DNA of 64,000 nt, from the NCBI RefSeq assembly GCF_001027285.1, contig NZ_CP011509.1:5666501-5730500 (forward strand), written 5' to 3'. Of the stretch, positions 1-8,185 are shown piece by piece. Made by a program: the position numbers and the translations under genes. The notes beneath the pieces were generated by a model, which saw only the letters and a list, made by a program, of their open reading frames with translations, ran no database searches and was not told where the DNA came from. Numbering within the stretch: the stretch's first letter is position 1; every line of letters starts with the position of its first letter. Source of the stretch: Archangium gephyra. GTDB lineage: Bacteria; Myxococcota; Myxococcia; Myxococcales; Myxococcaceae.

Positions 1-2326
1 CGCCGCGCCAGGGTTCGTTGGCGGGGGCGAGCCACGCGCCCCGTTCGAGCGTCCGCCGGGAGATCACCCCGCAGGCGGCCCCATCCGGGGGGCTGCGCCG
101 GGACCGCTGGGGAGCGCCCTCCTCGGTGGCGAGGAGCCAGGGGTGGTAGAGGGCCCCGTGGCTCAGGGCGTTCTCCTCCGCGGTGCCCAGCGGGGGGACG
201 CCTTCCTCCTCGGGGGCGAGCGGGGCGCGCAGGGCCGCGGCGTGGGCGATGGCCTTCTCCTCGCGGTAGTGCTCGGGCAGGGAGAGGACGGCGAGCAGAT
301 CCCCCCGAGCGGCGCACATGCGCAGCAGCGCGCGCTGGATGGCCAGCAGGTGGCTGGCCGAGTAGTCCTCCTCGGGGCTCAGCTCCCACCGGGGCCCGGT
401 GGAGACGGACACGGCCAGGCCTGGAGAGTACGCGCTGACGAGGCCACCCAGCTCGGAGCGGACGCGGTAGTAGTACGTCCCCGCGTCCCGGCCGTGGAGG
501 GTGAGCTCACCGGTGGGCCCTTGGTACAGGGTCCTCGCTCCCAGGTAGTCCGCGCGGGTGGCCTCCTCGAGCACATGGGTCGCACCCGGCCCCGTCGGTG
601 TGGTCCACGTCAGGGTGAAGATCGTGTCGGCGGCGGGGGAAGGAGGCGTCGCGACGGGCCTCGAGGGGGGCGGGAGGACGCGGGTGCCACAGTCGAGGAA
701 GGTGCCCCACCCGGGCTCCTTCGCCGGCTCGGGCGGCTTCGGGCTGGCGGCCGGCTCCTGCTCCACGCGCTTCCAGGGCCGATGGGCAGCGTCCGGTATC
801 GCCACGAGGGAGACATCGGCCTTGGAGAGCAGGGCATGGAGGCCCTTCAGCTCGCGGGGCCGTGAGCTCTGGTAGCGGAGGAAGTCCGCGTGTCCGGGCA
901 GGGCGCGGATGCCAATCCCTCGCAGGGCCTCGTCAAGGAAGAGGCGGGAGTGGAACTCCGCGAGCCCATCGCGCTCGAGCGCGTCCAGGGGCGAGGGGAC
1001 ACAGCCCAGGAACCGCTCGGGCAGCGGTCCCACCCCGAGCGGGAGGTAGCAGGCCGGATCATCGTCCTGCTGGCCGGCGAGGGGGAAGCGGGGCTCCAGG
1101 GTCTCCTCGCGAAGGCTCGCGTGGAGCTGGAGCGTGTCCGTCGGGTCGAGGCGCTCCTCGGCCTCGAGACGCTCCCCGGTGGGGAGCTGCCCCTCGGTGA
1201 TGCGGACCCACTCGGCATCCGTGGGCAGCGCGCCCCAGTAGCGGGGGTGCTCGGGGCAGAGGCCCAGCTCCTCCAGCCGCAGCGGCTGTTCCACCCCACT
1301 CCGGATCCAGAGGCCGAGGGTGAGCAGCTCGCAGGTTCCGCTCGTGCCGGGCGGCAGCTCCGCGACGTCCGGGGTGCCGGGTAGCACCTGGACGGCCTCG
1401 CCCCGCACCCGGACGGTGGGGGTCTCCCTTCCTTCCAACGGGAAGCTTTCCCCCACGGTGAACCAGAGCGAAGCCGTGTGGCTCTCCAGGCGCAGCAGCG
1501 AGCCGGGCCGGGGTGCGTCCGCGAAGTCCGTTTCCAGCTCCAGCCCGAGCGCGGAAACCTCGCGGACGTTCAGGAGGCGCTCCGTATCGCCCCGCATCCA
1601 GCGGGCCACCCAGGGGGCCTGCTCTACCGCGGCCGAACGCAGCCACAAGGGGCGCCTGCCCTGTGCGCGGACCCACGTCTGGTGCTCCACCAGACCGGAG
1701 GAGGTGGCTCCCTGGCCAGGTACGATTGCCTTGACGGACTCCACTGGCAGGAGCAACGAGTGGCCCGACGCGGCGAAGCGGACGCGGATCAGCTCTCCGG
1801 GGGAGAGGCCGGCGGGGGCGATCACCGTCAGCTCCACCGGGCCATCCCCGGCGGGGGCGCTCCAGGCGGCCAGCGAGAGCGGCCTGGCGGAGAGGGTGGT
1901 CGCGAGCTGTAGGGAATCCGACCAACTCCCCTCGGAGCGGGCTCGGGCGAAGGCGGGGGAGAGCTGTCCGGATGCGGAGCGGCGGAGCAGCCCGGGCAGG
2001 GGGAAGAGGTTGGAGCGAGCCTCCGCCCCCGCTACCCGCACCACCCAGCAGCGCCGGCCTCCGTTGCGGAAGAAGTCCCGGACCGCGGGCGCCAGCCGTG
2101 CGTGGACGAGCTCCTTGCGCTCGGCGTCCGTGGCCAGCGCCAGATCCTCGCCGAAGAGGGCCTGGAAGCGGGCCACGTCCTCCACGACGACGGGACGGTG
2201 GAGCGGCCCCGAGCTCGCGAAGCCCACGAAGGCCGCCACGTCCATCCGGGGCAGCTCGTCCGGAATGGACGGGGCCTGGACGTCGAAGCGGATGCCGGGC
2301 AGGCGTCTGGCGTCGGGGCGGCGCAC
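1..2326 (-). CDS. Large contractile-tail sheath-like protein with an FN3-like insertion (partial, runs off left edge)
   Basis: Reading the minus strand from a GTG at 2326 gives an open frame with no stop through base 2, so at least 775 residues are visible and the C terminus is outside the window. The N terminus (RRLPGIRFDVQAPSIP, then DVAAFVGFASSGPL) resembles the first domain of contractile tail sheaths. The end of the visible frame (ALYHPWLLATE, then GVISR and GAWLAPANEPWRG) matches the conserved sheath core that normally reads LYYPW, AGVYAR and KAPAN. Between them is a long insertion. Around bases 640-430 it contains a fibronectin-III-like segment (FTLTWTTP to YYYRVRSE). The start is one base past the tube gene stop, with GGAG about 10 nt upstream. 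It is probably an Afp3/Afp4-like second sheath. Family assignment is strong; the role of the insertion is unknown. Confidence 0.82.
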   Translation of the reverse strand, partial: MRRPDARRLPGIRFDVQAPSIPDELPRMDVAAFVGFASSGPLHRPVVVEDVARFQALFGEDLALATDAERKELVHARLAPAVRDFFRNGGRRCWVVRVAGAEARSNLFPLPGLLRRSASGQLSPAFARARSEGSWSDSLQLATTLSARPLSLAAWSAPAGDGPVELTVIAPAGLSPGELIRVRFAASGHSLLLPVESVKAIVPGQGATSSGLVEHQTWVRAQGRRPLWLRSAAVEQAPWVARWMRGDTERLLNVREVSALGLELETDFADAPRPGSLLRLESHTASLWFTVGESFPLEGRETPTVRVRGEAVQVLPGTPDVAELPPGTSGTCELLTLGLWIRSGVEQPLRLEELGLCPEHPRYWGALPTDAEWVRITEGQLPTGERLEAEERLDPTDTLQLHASLREETLEPRFPLAGQQDDDPACYLPLGVGPLPERFLGCVPSPLDALERDGLAEFHSRLFLDEALRGIGIRALPGHADFLRYQSSRPRELKGLHALLSKADVSLVAIPDAAHRPWKRVEQEPAASPKPPEPAKEPGWGTFLDCGTRVLPPPSRPVATPPSPAADTIFTLTWTTPTGPGATHVLEEATRADYLGARTLYQGPTGELTLHGRDAGTYYYRVRSELGGLVSAYSPGLAVSVSTGPRWELSPEEDYSASHLLAIQRALLRMCAARGDLLAVLSLPEHYREEKAIAHAAALRAPLAPEEEGVPPLGTAEENALSHGALYHPWLLATEEGAPQRSRRSPPDGAACGVISRRTLERGAWLAPANEPWRG

Positions 2327-2327
2327 G

Positions 2328-2780
2328 CTATTCCATCTCCAGTCGCTCGTAGGCGATCGTCAGCTCCTCCATCGCCACGTCCGTGCCCTTGGCGTTCAGC
2401 GGGCCACTGACGTGCTTGATGATGCGGGCCCGCAGCAGCTTCCACGTCTGGACGATCTCGGTGTGGTCCTCGTTCTGGAGCTGGATGGTGATGGTGCGGA
2501 GCGCGTTCTGGTCGCCGTTGCGGATCTGGTGGAGCCAGTTGTAGAGCGTCAGCGAGCCGATGACGCCGCGCTTCATGGTGACGTCGGTCGTCTTGTTGAG
2601 GCCGGTGATTTTCCGGACGCTGTTCTCCTTCTCGTTGCCATTGCGGTAATCGACGACGGTGACCTCCATGCCGATGTTGCTGATCTCCTGGAATCCCGCG
2701 TCCGGCCCGTCGGTGTTGCCGGTGCCGAGGTCCACGAGGAAGTTGAACTGCACATAGGGACGATCACGGTAGACGGCCAT
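2328..2780 (-). CDS. Contractile injection system tail tube protein (T4 gp19/Afp1-like)
   Basis: The 150-residue product opens MAVYRDRPYVQFNFLVDLG and ends MEELTIAYERLEME. This is the typical size and pattern of gp19-family tube subunits, in which the protein forms the inner tube propelled through a target envelope by sheath contraction. The N-terminal 'F.V.I....' strand, the central 'YRNGN' loop and the C-terminal 'EELTLAYE..' strand are characteristic. It lies 26 nt after the sheath gene and one base before the second sheath, so all three are almost certainly co-transcribed. No signal peptide or membrane segment is visible, as expected for an intracellularly assembled particle. Confidence 0.88.
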   Translation of the reverse strand: MAVYRDRPYVQFNFLVDLGTGNTDGPDAGFQEISNIGMEVTVVDYRNGNEKENSVRKITGLNKTTDVTMKRGVIGSLTLYNWLHQIRNGDQNALRTITIQLQNEDHTEIVQTWKLLRARIIKHVSGPLNAKGTDVAMEELTIAYERLEME

Positions 2781-2806
2781 GGGAAGGGGCCTCCTGGGCG
2801 AGCGGG

Positions 2807-4780
<1,974 letters not shown>

Positions 4781-4799
4781 CGACAGGTCCTCGCATTCC

Positions 4800-5663
4800 T
4801 CAGGGGAGTGAACCGGTGGGCGTGAGCCTGAGCCGGGAGAGAGAATCGTTCTGGGTGCGCACGACGAGCTCCTGGTCGAAGCGGAGCGTGCGCTCGATGT
4901 GGTCCTGTGCACCGGACAGGTCGGGCCAGAGCCGGGCGGGTGGCTGCCCCAGGGTGTCGTCGAGCTCCGGGAACTCGCGCACGGGCGAGCGGTGCGCGTA
5001 GAAGGCGGAGAGCCGCACCGTCCAGGTCTGGGACAGCAGCGGCGGGCCCTGGGAGAAGGAGGAGCCGGACCCGGCGGTGGCGGGCGCGAAGTCCTCTGGC
5101 GCCGGATACTGGAAGAAGAGGGCGATCCGTCCCTTGTCATCCGCCACGCCGCGAGCCGGAGCGCCGTCGCCCACGGAGAGCTCCAGCCGGGCCCACGAGG
5201 CCGGTGCGTCATGGGTCGTGTCCCACAACTCGGCGCGCAGCACCGCGAGCGTGCGCGAGGCCTGCCGGGTGGGGGCGGAGAAGAGGGGGACGGAGGGCTC
5301 CGCGGAGGGCGGTGACAGGGGCACGGGCGAGAAGAGGCCGTGGGAGGGCAGGTCGGCGTGGAAGGACAGGGGCAGGAAGCGCCCAAGGGTGTCGAGGAGC
5401 TCGACGGTGAAGCGCTTGGGCGAGGCCTTGGGGAGAGCCCCTTCGCCGTTCATCTCGAAGTCACGCAGCCCAGGCAGATCCTGGAGCACCCAGACCTTGC
5501 TGGGGGTGACGAAGGCGTGTCGGCTCAGCGAGGGCCGTGAGGGCGGGAACGCCCGCACCACGAGCCCGTCGCCGATGAAGTGGCCGGTGCTCTCGTCGCG
5601 GAAGCGCATGCCGAAGGGCACCACGCGCGACACCTTCGTCAGGACGTGCACCGGGGGCCTCAT
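4800..5663 (-). CDS. eCIS operon protein of unknown function (287 aa)
   Basis: I do not recognise a named family. The protein starts MRPPVHVLTKVSRVVPFGMRF and lacks a signal peptide or membrane segment. It contains a proline- and serine-rich stretch around residues 105-130 and a beta-rich second half (ARLELSVGDG, RGVADDKGRIALFFQYP) that resembles the small carboxypeptidase-regulatory or SpaA-like sandwich fold. Its ATG overlaps the stop of the DUF4255 gene (ATGA), and it ends 19 nt before the sheath start, so it belongs to the tail operon. By position it could be a tail terminator partner, cap or surface decoration; this is inference. Confidence 0.7.
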   Translation of the reverse strand: MRPPVHVLTKVSRVVPFGMRFRDESTGHFIGDGLVVRAFPPSRPSLSRHAFVTPSKVWVLQDLPGLRDFEMNGEGALPKASPKRFTVELLDTLGRFLPLSFHADLPSHGLFSPVPLSPPSAEPSVPLFSAPTRQASRTLAVLRAELWDTTHDAPASWARLELSVGDGAPARGVADDKGRIALFFQYPAPEDFAPATAGSGSSFSQGPPLLSQTWTVRLSAFYAHRSPVREFPELDDTLGQPPARLWPDLSGAQDHIERTLRFDQELVVRTQNDSLSRLRLTPTGSLP

Positions 5664-6253
5664 GGCTCGGTGTACCTCCCGTGCTGGAGCTCACGGGTCT
5701 GGACGGCCGGAGGCTGCTCGTCGCGGAGGGCCGACTCGAGGACGACCATGCGAGCGACGTAGGTGGCGGAGACCTGGAGATCGGGCTTGCCGACCTCCCA
5801 GACGTTGAGGAGATCCTGGATGGAGAGCGGATCGAAGACGAGGGTGACGGTCTCGTCGGGCAGGAAGGTGTCCGTCTCCGGGCGGCCATAGTGGTTGAGG
5901 AACTGGGCGGTGAGGGTAGGGGTGTCCTCGAGCGTGCGCATGGCCCAGCCGAGCAGTCGGTGCTGGCGCGCGGCGCTTCGGGCCCAGGGCGTGAGGAGGT
6001 AGTGGAGGTCGACCGGAAGCGGTTGCCGGTAACGTCGGCCCTGTGCATCCACGCGTCCAGGCAGGTTGCGGCGGTTGGTGCTGGGCACGACGCGGAAGAG
6101 GAAGAGGGAGATGCCCTCCTCCATGTGCGCCTTGAAGTTACTGGCCTGGTAGAGTTCGAACTTCGCGCCCTGGAACTCGGGCTTGGGACAGGCTTGTTCC
6201 AGCAAGCCGAGGAGGGCCTGTCCAAGGGCCGCGATCGCCGCGTAGGTTGCCAA
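5660..6253 (-). CDS. DUF4255-type tail terminator/cap protein (Afp16-like)
   Basis: The 197-residue product (YAAIAALGQALLGLLEQACP, then FELYQASNFKAHMEEGISLFLFRV and LPVDLHYLLTPWA) matches the DUF4255/Pvc16-like family, which closes the sheath-tube end of extracellular contractile injection systems. It is the first gene of the operon. The start is TTG at 6253, with GGGGAG 8 nt upstream; no ATG fits the conserved N terminus. The sigma54-type promoter begins about 105 nt upstream. A few residues near the C terminus (LQHGRYTEP) run into the next gene through a 4-nt overlap. Family call is good; the structural role comes from characterised Afp/PVC particles. Confidence 0.85.
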   Translation of the reverse strand: MATYAAIAALGQALLGLLEQACPKPEFQGAKFELYQASNFKAHMEEGISLFLFRVVPSTNRRNLPGRVDAQGRRYRQPLPVDLHYLLTPWARSAARQHRLLGWAMRTLEDTPTLTAQFLNHYGRPETDTFLPDETVTLVFDPLSIQDLLNVWEVGKPDLQVSATYVARMVVLESALRDEQPPAVQTRELQHGRYTEP

Positions 6254-6322
6254 CCTGACGTCTCCCCGGTGTCATGGTTTGCGAAGCGCCCGTTTCGCTT
6301 CCACCCCCCCGCCCTCCCCTCG

Positions 6323-6332
6323 CCCGTACGGG
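6323..6332. promoter_or_regulatory. CCCGTACGGG palindrome in the eCIS leader
   Basis: A perfect 10-bp palindrome lies about 15-24 nt downstream of the predicted sigma54 start site. It could be an operator for a repressor or simply a small RNA hairpin; nothing else supports a role. Confidence 0.25.
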
Positions 6333-6357
6333 ATGTCCCGACAGCGCGTGACCGTGG

Positions 6358-6373
6358 AGCAACCGCCGGGCCA
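6358..6373 (-). promoter_or_regulatory. -24/-12 sigma54 promoter of the eCIS operon
   Basis: The minus strand reads TGGCCCGGCGGTTGCT. The consensus TGGCACG-N4-TTGCW is matched at all but one position, with the diagnostic 10-bp spacing between the GG and GC dinucleotides. Transcription would start near 6347, leaving a leader of about 95 nt before the TTG start at 6253. The next gene upstream encodes a sigma54 activator, which independently supports the call. Confidence 0.78.
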
Positions 6374-6445
6374 GCCAGCGGCGGGGCTCAAGGTGTCGTG
6401 ATTTCAAGGGCTTCAGCGCGGCAACGCGGCCGGAGGGCGGCGGGA

Positions 6446-6518
6446 GTGGGACGAATTCCTCCACCCCGTCGTGACAAGTGCCGGTACTTCCCGGGAGGAG
6501 GGTGGACAATTTCGTCCA
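6446..6518. promoter_or_regulatory. Candidate enhancer (UAS) palindromes for the sigma54 activator
   Basis: Two related imperfect palindromes occur: GGACGAATTCCTCC at 6449-6462 and GGACAATTTCGTCC at 6504-6517 (11 of 14 identical). They are centred 55 bp apart, about five helical turns, at roughly -108 and -163 from the predicted start site. A third near-palindrome, AAGTGCCGGTACTT, lies between them at 6476-6489. Position and pairing are what a Fis-type activator would need; binding is inferred. Confidence 0.45.
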
Positions 6519-6573
6519 GGCGTCGGGCGTGAGGAGTCCCGTCCGCTGGGCGTGCGCGAGGGTGGGGTTGTTT

Positions 6574-7542
6574 TCAGCGAGTGAGACCGTGCCGGCGCAT
6601 GAGCTCGAAAAAGGCGCGGCGGTGCTTGCCACTGGCGCGAGCCGCGGCGGCGATGTTGCCATCGTGGGCGCGGAGCGAGGCCTCGAGGTACTGGCGCTCG
6701 AAGGCGGAGACGACGCGGCGCTTGGCGGCCTGAAAGGTCTCGTGAGGCGAGGAGGAGGGGGGCGGCGGAGCGGAGGGCTCGGGAGCGAAGTCCTGGAGGG
6801 TGGGGAGATCCTCGGCCTCGACGACGGAGCCGCCATGGGTGCACAGGAGGTAGCGGGCGCAGTTCTCCAACTCGCGGATGTTGCCGGGCCAGTCGTATTC
6901 CCACAGGCGTTGGAGTGCCGCCTCGGAGAAGGTGAGCAGGGCCTTGCCGTATTCGGAGGCGTAGCGGTGGATGAAGTGTTGGAGCAGGAGGGGGATGTCC
7001 TCGCGGCGCTCCTTGAGGGGCGGGACCCAGATGGGTAGCACGCGCAGGCGGAAGAAGAGATCGAAGCGGAAGCGGCCCTTCTTCACCTCGGCGACCAGGT
7101 CGGCGTTGGTGGCGGCGATGATGCGCACATCCGAGCGGTGCAGGCGGGTATCGCCCAGGGGCCGGTACTCCTTCTGCTGGATGAAGCGCAGCAGCTTGAC
7201 CTGGCCAGCGAGGGGCAGGGAGTCGATCTCGTCCAGGAAGAGGGTGCCCTGGTGGGCCTCGGCGACCAGACCCACGGCGCGGGTACGGGCGCCGGTGAAG
7301 GCGCCACCGGCATGGCCGAAGAGTTCGTTCTCGAAGAGCTCGGGGGGAAGAGCGCCGCAGTTGACGGGGATGAAAGAGGCTCGTGCGCGGGTGCTCAGCT
7401 CGTGGATGCGCCGGGCGTAGAGTTCCTTGCCCACGCCACTGGGTCCATGGATGAGAACCTCCGCGTCGGTACTGGATGCGGAGGTGACCAGCTCCAGCAG
7501 GCGTTCATGGATCCTACTGTTGCCGAGGATCTGCGCGGTCAT
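6574..7542 (-). CDS. Sigma54-dependent activator, PspF-like (AAA+ domain plus Fis-type HTH)
   Basis: The 322-residue product has a Walker A GPSGVGKE (about 33-40), the sigma54-contacting GAFTGA loop (80-85), Walker B LFLDEID (101-107), the DNA-helicase-like FWIVR/R-finger region (RFDLFFRLRVLPIWVPPL) and a C-terminal Fis-like helix-turn-helix (NIAAAARASGKHRR). There is essentially no domain before the AAA+ module, so no receiver, GAF or FHA input. As in PspF, activity would have to be set by a partner protein or by expression level. A longer frame reaches 7674, but the start at 7542 has AGGGGGG just upstream and fits the fold. It reads toward the eCIS operon, whose sigma54 promoter lies 200 bp beyond its stop; control of that operon is the obvious inference. 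Confidence 0.9.
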   Translation of the reverse strand: MTAQILGNSRIHERLLELVTSASSTDAEVLIHGPSGVGKELYARRIHELSTRARASFIPVNCGALPPELFENELFGHAGGAFTGARTRAVGLVAEAHQGTLFLDEIDSLPLAGQVKLLRFIQQKEYRPLGDTRLHRSDVRIIAATNADLVAEVKKGRFRFDLFFRLRVLPIWVPPLKERREDIPLLLQHFIHRYASEYGKALLTFSEAALQRLWEYDWPGNIRELENCARYLLCTHGGSVVEAEDLPTLQDFAPEPSAPPPPSSSPHETFQAAKRRVVSAFERQYLEASLRAHDGNIAAAARASGKHRRAFFELMRRHGLTR

Positions 7543-7897: not shown

Positions 7898-7900
7898 CCT

Positions 7901-7974
7901 TGGCCAGGGTCGGACTTGAACCGACTACCTGCGGATTATGAGACCGCCGCTCTAACCAGGTGAGCTACCTGGCC
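7901..7974 (-). tRNA. tRNA with CAT anticodon, most likely elongator tRNA-Met
   Basis: The minus strand folds as a 74-nt cloverleaf. It has acceptor GGCCAGG/CCTGGCC with A73, D-arm GCTC/GAGC, anticodon loop CTCATAA (anticodon CAT), and T-arm loop TTCAAGT. No CCA is encoded. A CAT anticodon can also belong to tRNA-Ile2 (lysidine-modified) or initiator Met. The A-T-rich CTCATAA loop and the paired first acceptor position argue against initiator; Met versus Ile2 is not resolved by eye. Confidence 0.88.
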
Positions 7975-8185
7975 AAAAAGTGGTGCCTCTCATAGCGGGA
8001 CTGGTGCCCCACTGCAAGAGGATAGGTGAGCCGAAGTGAGCCCGGCTGCCCTGGGGGCCGCCAGACCGGGCTTGGACCTCGGCTCGAAGCTGGGGCTTCC
8101 CGTGCCACCTGGGACTGGAACACCGGCTCGCGTTGGCTCTAGTCCCGGAATGCTTCGTCGGATTCTCATAAGCCGAACTTCTATG

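Follow-up and report, generated by a model that had tools for sequence, protein, structure and literature searches.

A putative dedicated bEBP/sigma54 switch for an eCIS operon in Archangium gephyra, with relatives in about eight phyla

In a 64,000-nucleotide stretch of the Archangium gephyra genome (hereafter, the window: bases 5,666,501-5,730,500 of a single contig of 12,489,432 bp), we found a sigma54 promoter element, two upstream palindromes, and a bEBP gene ahead of an eCIS operon (Table 1), which very probably make up a dedicated bEBP/sigma54 switch for that operon. From the DNA, we can show the parts together with how they are conserved and spaced, and also that the palindromes correspond to the recognition helix of the bEBP. 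It is also likely that this bEBP belongs to an ancient, previously undescribed group of sigma54 activators in about eight phyla that is mainly dedicated to eCIS operons, with its own 18-bp palindromes, a readable code of helix and half-site (HRRAFFEL-GTGGAY, ERRSFQRL-TGCGGC, SRTALWNL-CGTCAY, and ERRSLGKL-TGGGTT), and several altered contact loops (GAYTSA and GAFTDA).

Table 1. Promoter features, activator gene, and operon genes in the window.
Feature	Position	Strand	Remarks
sigma54 -24/-12 promoter element TGGCCCGGCGGTTGCT	6373-6358	minus	GG 6372-6371, GC 6360-6359
Proximal activator palindrome (putative) GTGGAGGAATTCGTCCCA	6447-6464	minus	91 bp upstream of -24 element
Distal activator palindrome (putative) CTGGACGAAATTGTCCAC	6502-6519	minus	146 bp upstream of -24 element
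bEBP gene, 322 aa	6574-7542	minus	Sigma54_activat PF00158 9e-62; Fis-type HTH PF02954 3.5e-5
Pvc16_N, first operon gene	5660-6253	minus	PF14065 1.9e-33; start conserved
Second operon gene	4800-5663	minus	No Pfam match; kept in orthologous operons (48-52%)
eCIS sheath protein	2807-4789	minus	PF04984, PF17482; coordinates are those of the tested reading frame
eCIS inner tube protein, gp19 type	2328-2780	minus	PF06841 3.5e-34, TIGR02241
Second sheath-like gene	1-2326	minus	Runs off the left end of the window

Read directly on the minus strand, the promoter element matches the consensus TGGCACGNNNNTTGCW at 11 of 12 positions, with one mismatch (A to C) and exact GG/GC spacing, just as the initial annotation had claimed. 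It was the sole site of 11/12 or better in the 104 kb scanned (0.005 per kb per strand), and its position predicts a transcription start at ~6347. The genome contains a single sigma54 gene (rpoN; PF04552, 4.4e-66), a gene reported to be essential in Myxococcus xanthus (Keseler and Kaiser 1997, cited in PMC12316311), and a scan for sigma70-type sites, which covers no other sigma factors, returned none in 6200-6700. The operon that follows the element is an eCIS operon, because genes for Pvc16_N, sheath, tube, gp25, baseplate J, and Tail_P2_I are clustered downstream of it; the last three, together with a second tube gene, lie beyond the left end of the window, where the operon goes on.

The two similar palindromes that the same annotation had noted are also present: Their cores, GGAGGAATTCGTCC at 6462-6449 and GGACGAAATTGTCC at 6517-6504, lie 55 bp apart and are centered near -108 and -163, within the usual range of sigma54 activator sites (~100-200 bp upstream). 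Both are imperfect (one has 1 mismatched pair among its 7, the other has 2), and in a sequence-blind palindrome-pair scan of the window alone, the pair was without significance (p = 0.25); the same type of search did succeed for several other loci. We therefore regard the palindromes as established by their conservation among relatives, in 13 myxobacterial promoters, which lengthens each of them by 2 bp per side to 18 bp. In pattern searches of the whole genome, a loose version of the paired pattern occurred once in 12,489,432 bp, at the window site, and the reversed-pattern control did not occur. We discarded the idea that the palindromes form an intrinsic terminator, as the sole terminator-like match (6632-6616) lies away from them.

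Orthologues of the bEBP (70-75%) occur in 10 other myxobacterial species, and the genera Archangium, Corallococcus, Myxococcus, Pyxidicoccus, and Citreicoccus contain orthologues of both the bEBP and Pvc16 (the latter at 71-78%). A search for the same sites in related genomes, as the annotation had suggested, found them at near-fixed spacing: Ahead of Pvc16, 12 other promoters from myxobacteria, all belonging to this eCIS type, contain a -24/-12 element (10-11 of 12), and over all 13 promoters, including that of the window, the proximal palindrome is located 91-94 bp and the distal one 146-150 bp upstream of the -24 element, with the remainder of the promoter region not conserved by eye. A point against the proposed switch is that the -24 element reads GGGCACG in Myxococcus and Pyxidicoccus. 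In Corallococcus sp. CA053C and C. llansteffanensis, which we left out of the spacing figures, the palindromes are found at the contig end adjoining the bEBP, and Pvc16 starts another contig. It also counts against the switch that adjacency of bEBP gene and operon is not constant, since at least 4 of the 10 named orthologous species have the bEBP gene at a place other than immediately ahead of the operon (in others, a contig end interrupts the locus). In Myxococcus eversor, other genes spanning ~5 kb separate the bEBP from Pvc16, and the promoter and palindromes remain with Pvc16, so that a role of these sites at the eCIS promoter can be separated from a role at the bEBP gene.

When matrices built from the 12 other promoters only were run on both strands of 104 kb of the genome, the window site ranked first of 206,860 positions with 55.9 bits, and the next scores were at most 33.4 bits. 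The runners-up reused the same two palindromes with a shifted promoter, and no independent place appeared among the top six. The held-out palindrome matrix likewise picked the two palindromes of the window as its best two matches, the distal one with 23.4 bits and the proximal one with 20.2 bits, versus 14.9 bits. As a control, we surveyed myxobacterial Pvc16 loci by means of PF14065, an eCIS marker present in 66 of 195 Myxococcota genomes. A forward sigma54 element was found in 5 of 45 usable upstream regions and in 0 of the other 40 (reverse-strand matches in 9 of these 40), where the loci are kin to each other and the count of 5 versus 0/40 is not a probability. Four of the five positive loci carry a bEBP like that of the window (P0001-like, 64-73%) within 5.5 kb, these being all the surveyed loci that do, and in the fifth the palindromes and their distances are identical in type to those of the other four. 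Other myxobacterial eCIS types seem to be regulated differently.

The ATG start of the window bEBP is backed by its orthologues, and the protein begins its AAA+ domain at residue 5, displays Walker A (GPSGVGKE) and Walker B (LFLDE) motifs, and can be aligned with bEBPs of solved structure, ZraR and NtrC among them. The GAFTGA loop, which contacts sigma54, is intact in it and in its ten myxobacterial orthologues, and the C-terminal Fis-type HTH scores above the cut-off. Pfam returned no N-terminal regulatory or sensor domain. Such a domain is common yet not obligatory in bEBPs, with PspF as an exception, and its lack therefore does not exclude the protein from the family. The window protein indeed shares the domain plan of PspF and other sensor-less bEBPs (AAA+ plus Fis-type HTH, about 320-330 aa), but the target of PspF is the psp operon, and the NCBIfam PspF equivalog model gave a partial match of 232 bits versus a cut-off of 443.55. 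No copies of the sites that would point to autoregulation were found within 500 bp upstream of the bEBP gene, nor did the window show, ahead of that gene, any conserved gene for a sensor or a partner protein. The Myxococcus, Pyxidicoccus, and Citreicoccus loci (L057-L062) do have a conserved region upstream of the bEBP, missing from the window, that includes an opposite-strand reading frame longer than 1,370 residues. A tRNA-Met gene (7900-7975) is located ~360 bp upstream of the bEBP gene, so that a tRNA locus may be where the cluster resides.

When 84,980 species genomes were scanned with the window bEBP, relatives at 43-57% identity were returned as well, many of them followed immediately by eCIS genes (in Nitrospira, Acidobacteria, Phycisphaerae and Brocadiaceae, Aminicenantes, Calditrichaceae, Syntrophobacter, and Neptunomonas). 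Such pairings span about eight phyla. The initial annotation had framed sigma54 control as a matter of myxobacterial eCIS; the unit is indeed present there, but it is not specific to myxobacteria. At 28 loci, all 83 of 83 CIS reading frames were located downstream of the bEBP and on its strand, and for 24 of these loci the sequence on the opposite flank of the bEBP also extends over 4.5 kb or more. In a quick, midpoint-rooted bEBP tree, where the linkage test covered all rows but 27 paralogue rows with flanks of only 1.5 kb, all eCIS-linked proteins fell within one part of 58 rows (SH-aLRT 99) and none among the 50 others. Counting rows with at least 4.5 kb downstream, 26/40 were linked versus 0/17 (p = 3e-6), or 16/27 after dereplication (p = 5e-5).

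Outside the close orthologues, sigma54 sites of at least 10/12 were observed between bEBP and eCIS genes at 15 of 24 loci in the forward direction and at 0 of 24 in reverse (combined p against shuffles, 5e-5), with 7 of the 24 loci being close Nitrospira relatives. Six loci that belong neither to the myxobacterial orthologues nor to Nitrospira (L071, L072, L076, L078, L079, and L093), three of which adjoin eCIS genes, have their proximal palindrome at a distance of 89-92 bp from the -24 element on its upstream side, in agreement with myxobacteria; in Nitrospira the distance is 76-78 bp. In many eCIS-linked bEBPs outside myxobacteria, GAFTGA is replaced by GAYTSA, GAFTDA, or GAYTDA; such departing loops occur in L065, L072, L078, L094-L100, and related loci. 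The Nitrospira and acidobacterial bEBPs and one of the two from Neptunomonas have an N-terminal extension of 140-195 residues, for which Pfam gave no match in the three bEBPs scanned. By eye, the extension in L098, L097, and L124 resembles a degenerate receiver-type domain.

Across these groups the palindromes vary and yet hold the 18-bp plan, tracking the recognition helix of the bEBP. The helix GKHRRAFFEL goes with GTGGAY-N6-RTCCAC, GK(E/D)RRSFQRL with TGCGGC-N6-GCCGCA, GKSRTALWNL with CGTCAY-N6-RTGACG, and GKERRSLGKL with TGGGTT-N6-AACCCA. Almost no cross matches were seen between the four groups, and three loci that were not used for motif definition (L066, L069, and L110) fit as well. Exceptions are L074, L082, L101, L121, and L128, which lack the site of their own group, and L067, which fits no group; in the window, a single weak match to TGCGGC occurs in addition to the site of its own group. 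The group motifs were first noticed by eye, and the match is a strong correlation, as distinct from a blind test. We infer from this covariation across phyla, the best evidence here, that the window bEBP binds its palindromes. The idea that the adjacent bEBP governs the contractile-particle operon, put forward in the initial annotation, thus gains support at the sequence level from the eCIS genes downstream, the GAFTGA-bearing bEBP, the single rpoN, the unit conserved in 13 promoters, and the covariation of helix and palindrome.

In standard sigma54 activation, dimers at two upstream sites form a hexamer that acts by DNA looping and ATP-driven promoter opening. In the window, the product of 6574-7542 would bind the two palindromes as dimers, ~108 and 163 bp upstream of the start, and assemble into an AAA+ hexamer, which would then reach the RNA polymerase-sigma54 parked at 6373-6358 via looping of the intervening DNA. 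Its GAFTGA loops and ATP hydrolysis would open the promoter, and the Pvc16-sheath-tube-baseplate operon would be transcribed from ~6347 in a sigma54-dependent manner. Particle production would be off by default, because sigma54 promoters are silent without an activator. As the bEBP has no sensor domain, control of the activator itself would probably act on its expression or come from a trans-acting partner protein.

Under one improbable reading, the -24/-12 element is genuine, but some other regulator, for example a repressor, occupies the palindromes, and the neighboring bEBP acts elsewhere. The distance of ~5 kb between bEBP gene and operon in M. eversor would suit this reading, as would the fact that the binding of palindromes by the bEBP is deduced from sequence comparison. 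Against it, the palindrome follows the bEBP helix in four groups, even at the three loci that played no part in defining the motifs, the genome contains no second copy of the paired motif, and M. eversor retains the sites at its operon and the bEBP in its genome. Scarcely credible is a chance match within a GC-rich intergenic region, with the operon using another promoter: The palindrome pair, taken alone in the window, would be compatible with chance, but its conservation and spacing over 13 promoters, the first rank of the window site in the held-out scan, the control loci that lack the motif, and the empty sigma70-type scan (other sigma factors being outside it) all argue for a functional site.

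A variant of the bEBP/sigma54 switch, which differs in its input only, is somewhat unlikely. Here, promoter and sites are as described, but the bEBP would be constitutively active once made, and timing would come mainly from other factors that act on the operon. The missing sensor domain and the lack of a conserved partner gene upstream in the window speak for this variant. However, PspF is also sensor-less and is controlled in trans by PspA, and a partner need not adjoin the activator gene.

The switch proposed here resembles the T6SS with its VasH-type activators in that a contractile injection machine is placed under sigma54 and a bEBP. The T6SS differs in being membrane-anchored and encoded by another gene cluster, whereas the window system is an eCIS of the Pvc16/gp19 type with a bEBP of another lineage, which we take to be distinct from that of the VasH-type activators. 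Nla28-type sigma54 promoters of Myxococcus xanthus (PMC7910581) share the -24/-12 consensus and paired upstream activator sites, but these are tandem 8-bp half sites, CT(C/G)CG(C/G)AG, and they serve natural-product genes. Sigma54 control of the T6SS has been described for RpoN in Pseudomonas aeruginosa (PMC3804575) and reviewed (PMC10482370), and a 2025 survey of the sigma54 regulon (PMC12316311) mentions the T6SS and no contractile or phage-tail terms. The eCIS regulators named so far, by Geller et al. 2021 (PMC8213781), are of the GerE/LuxR, BTAD, and RfaH types; they also have genes adjoining the eCIS cluster, but they are not sigma54 activators, and the main text of that paper mentions neither sigma54 nor PF00158. 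In the literature searched, which covers few subscription papers, we found no report of sigma54/bEBP control of an eCIS, in keeping with the remark in the annotation that none was known for a myxobacterial one. The switch is of a familiar type, in a setting for which it seems to be undescribed, and the evidence points to a recurrent arrangement.

A sigma54 switch predicts that the operon stays silent until a single activator is produced or set free. Since mutations could be confined to one gene and two short DNA sites, it becomes possible to test directly when the particles are made. The match of helix and palindrome makes the targets of such activators predictable from sequence, and the recurrence across several phyla suggests that sigma54 has come to control eCIS as well as the T6SS.

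The activator group is not exclusive to eCIS, because unlinked members of its part of the tree adjoin peptidases, a secretin, and pilus genes, and it may control other exported systems too. At L068, the first gene (2264-6058) after a group bEBP and a strong sigma54 site encodes, in place of eCIS components, a protein of 1265 residues or more that matches CarboxypepD_reg and VRP1. Five further loci (L069, L076, L082, L087, and L093) have a group bEBP and a good sigma54 site downstream, with no eCIS genes found nearby; L076 offers only ~500 bp of downstream sequence, and some of the other four display peptidases or TPR proteins.
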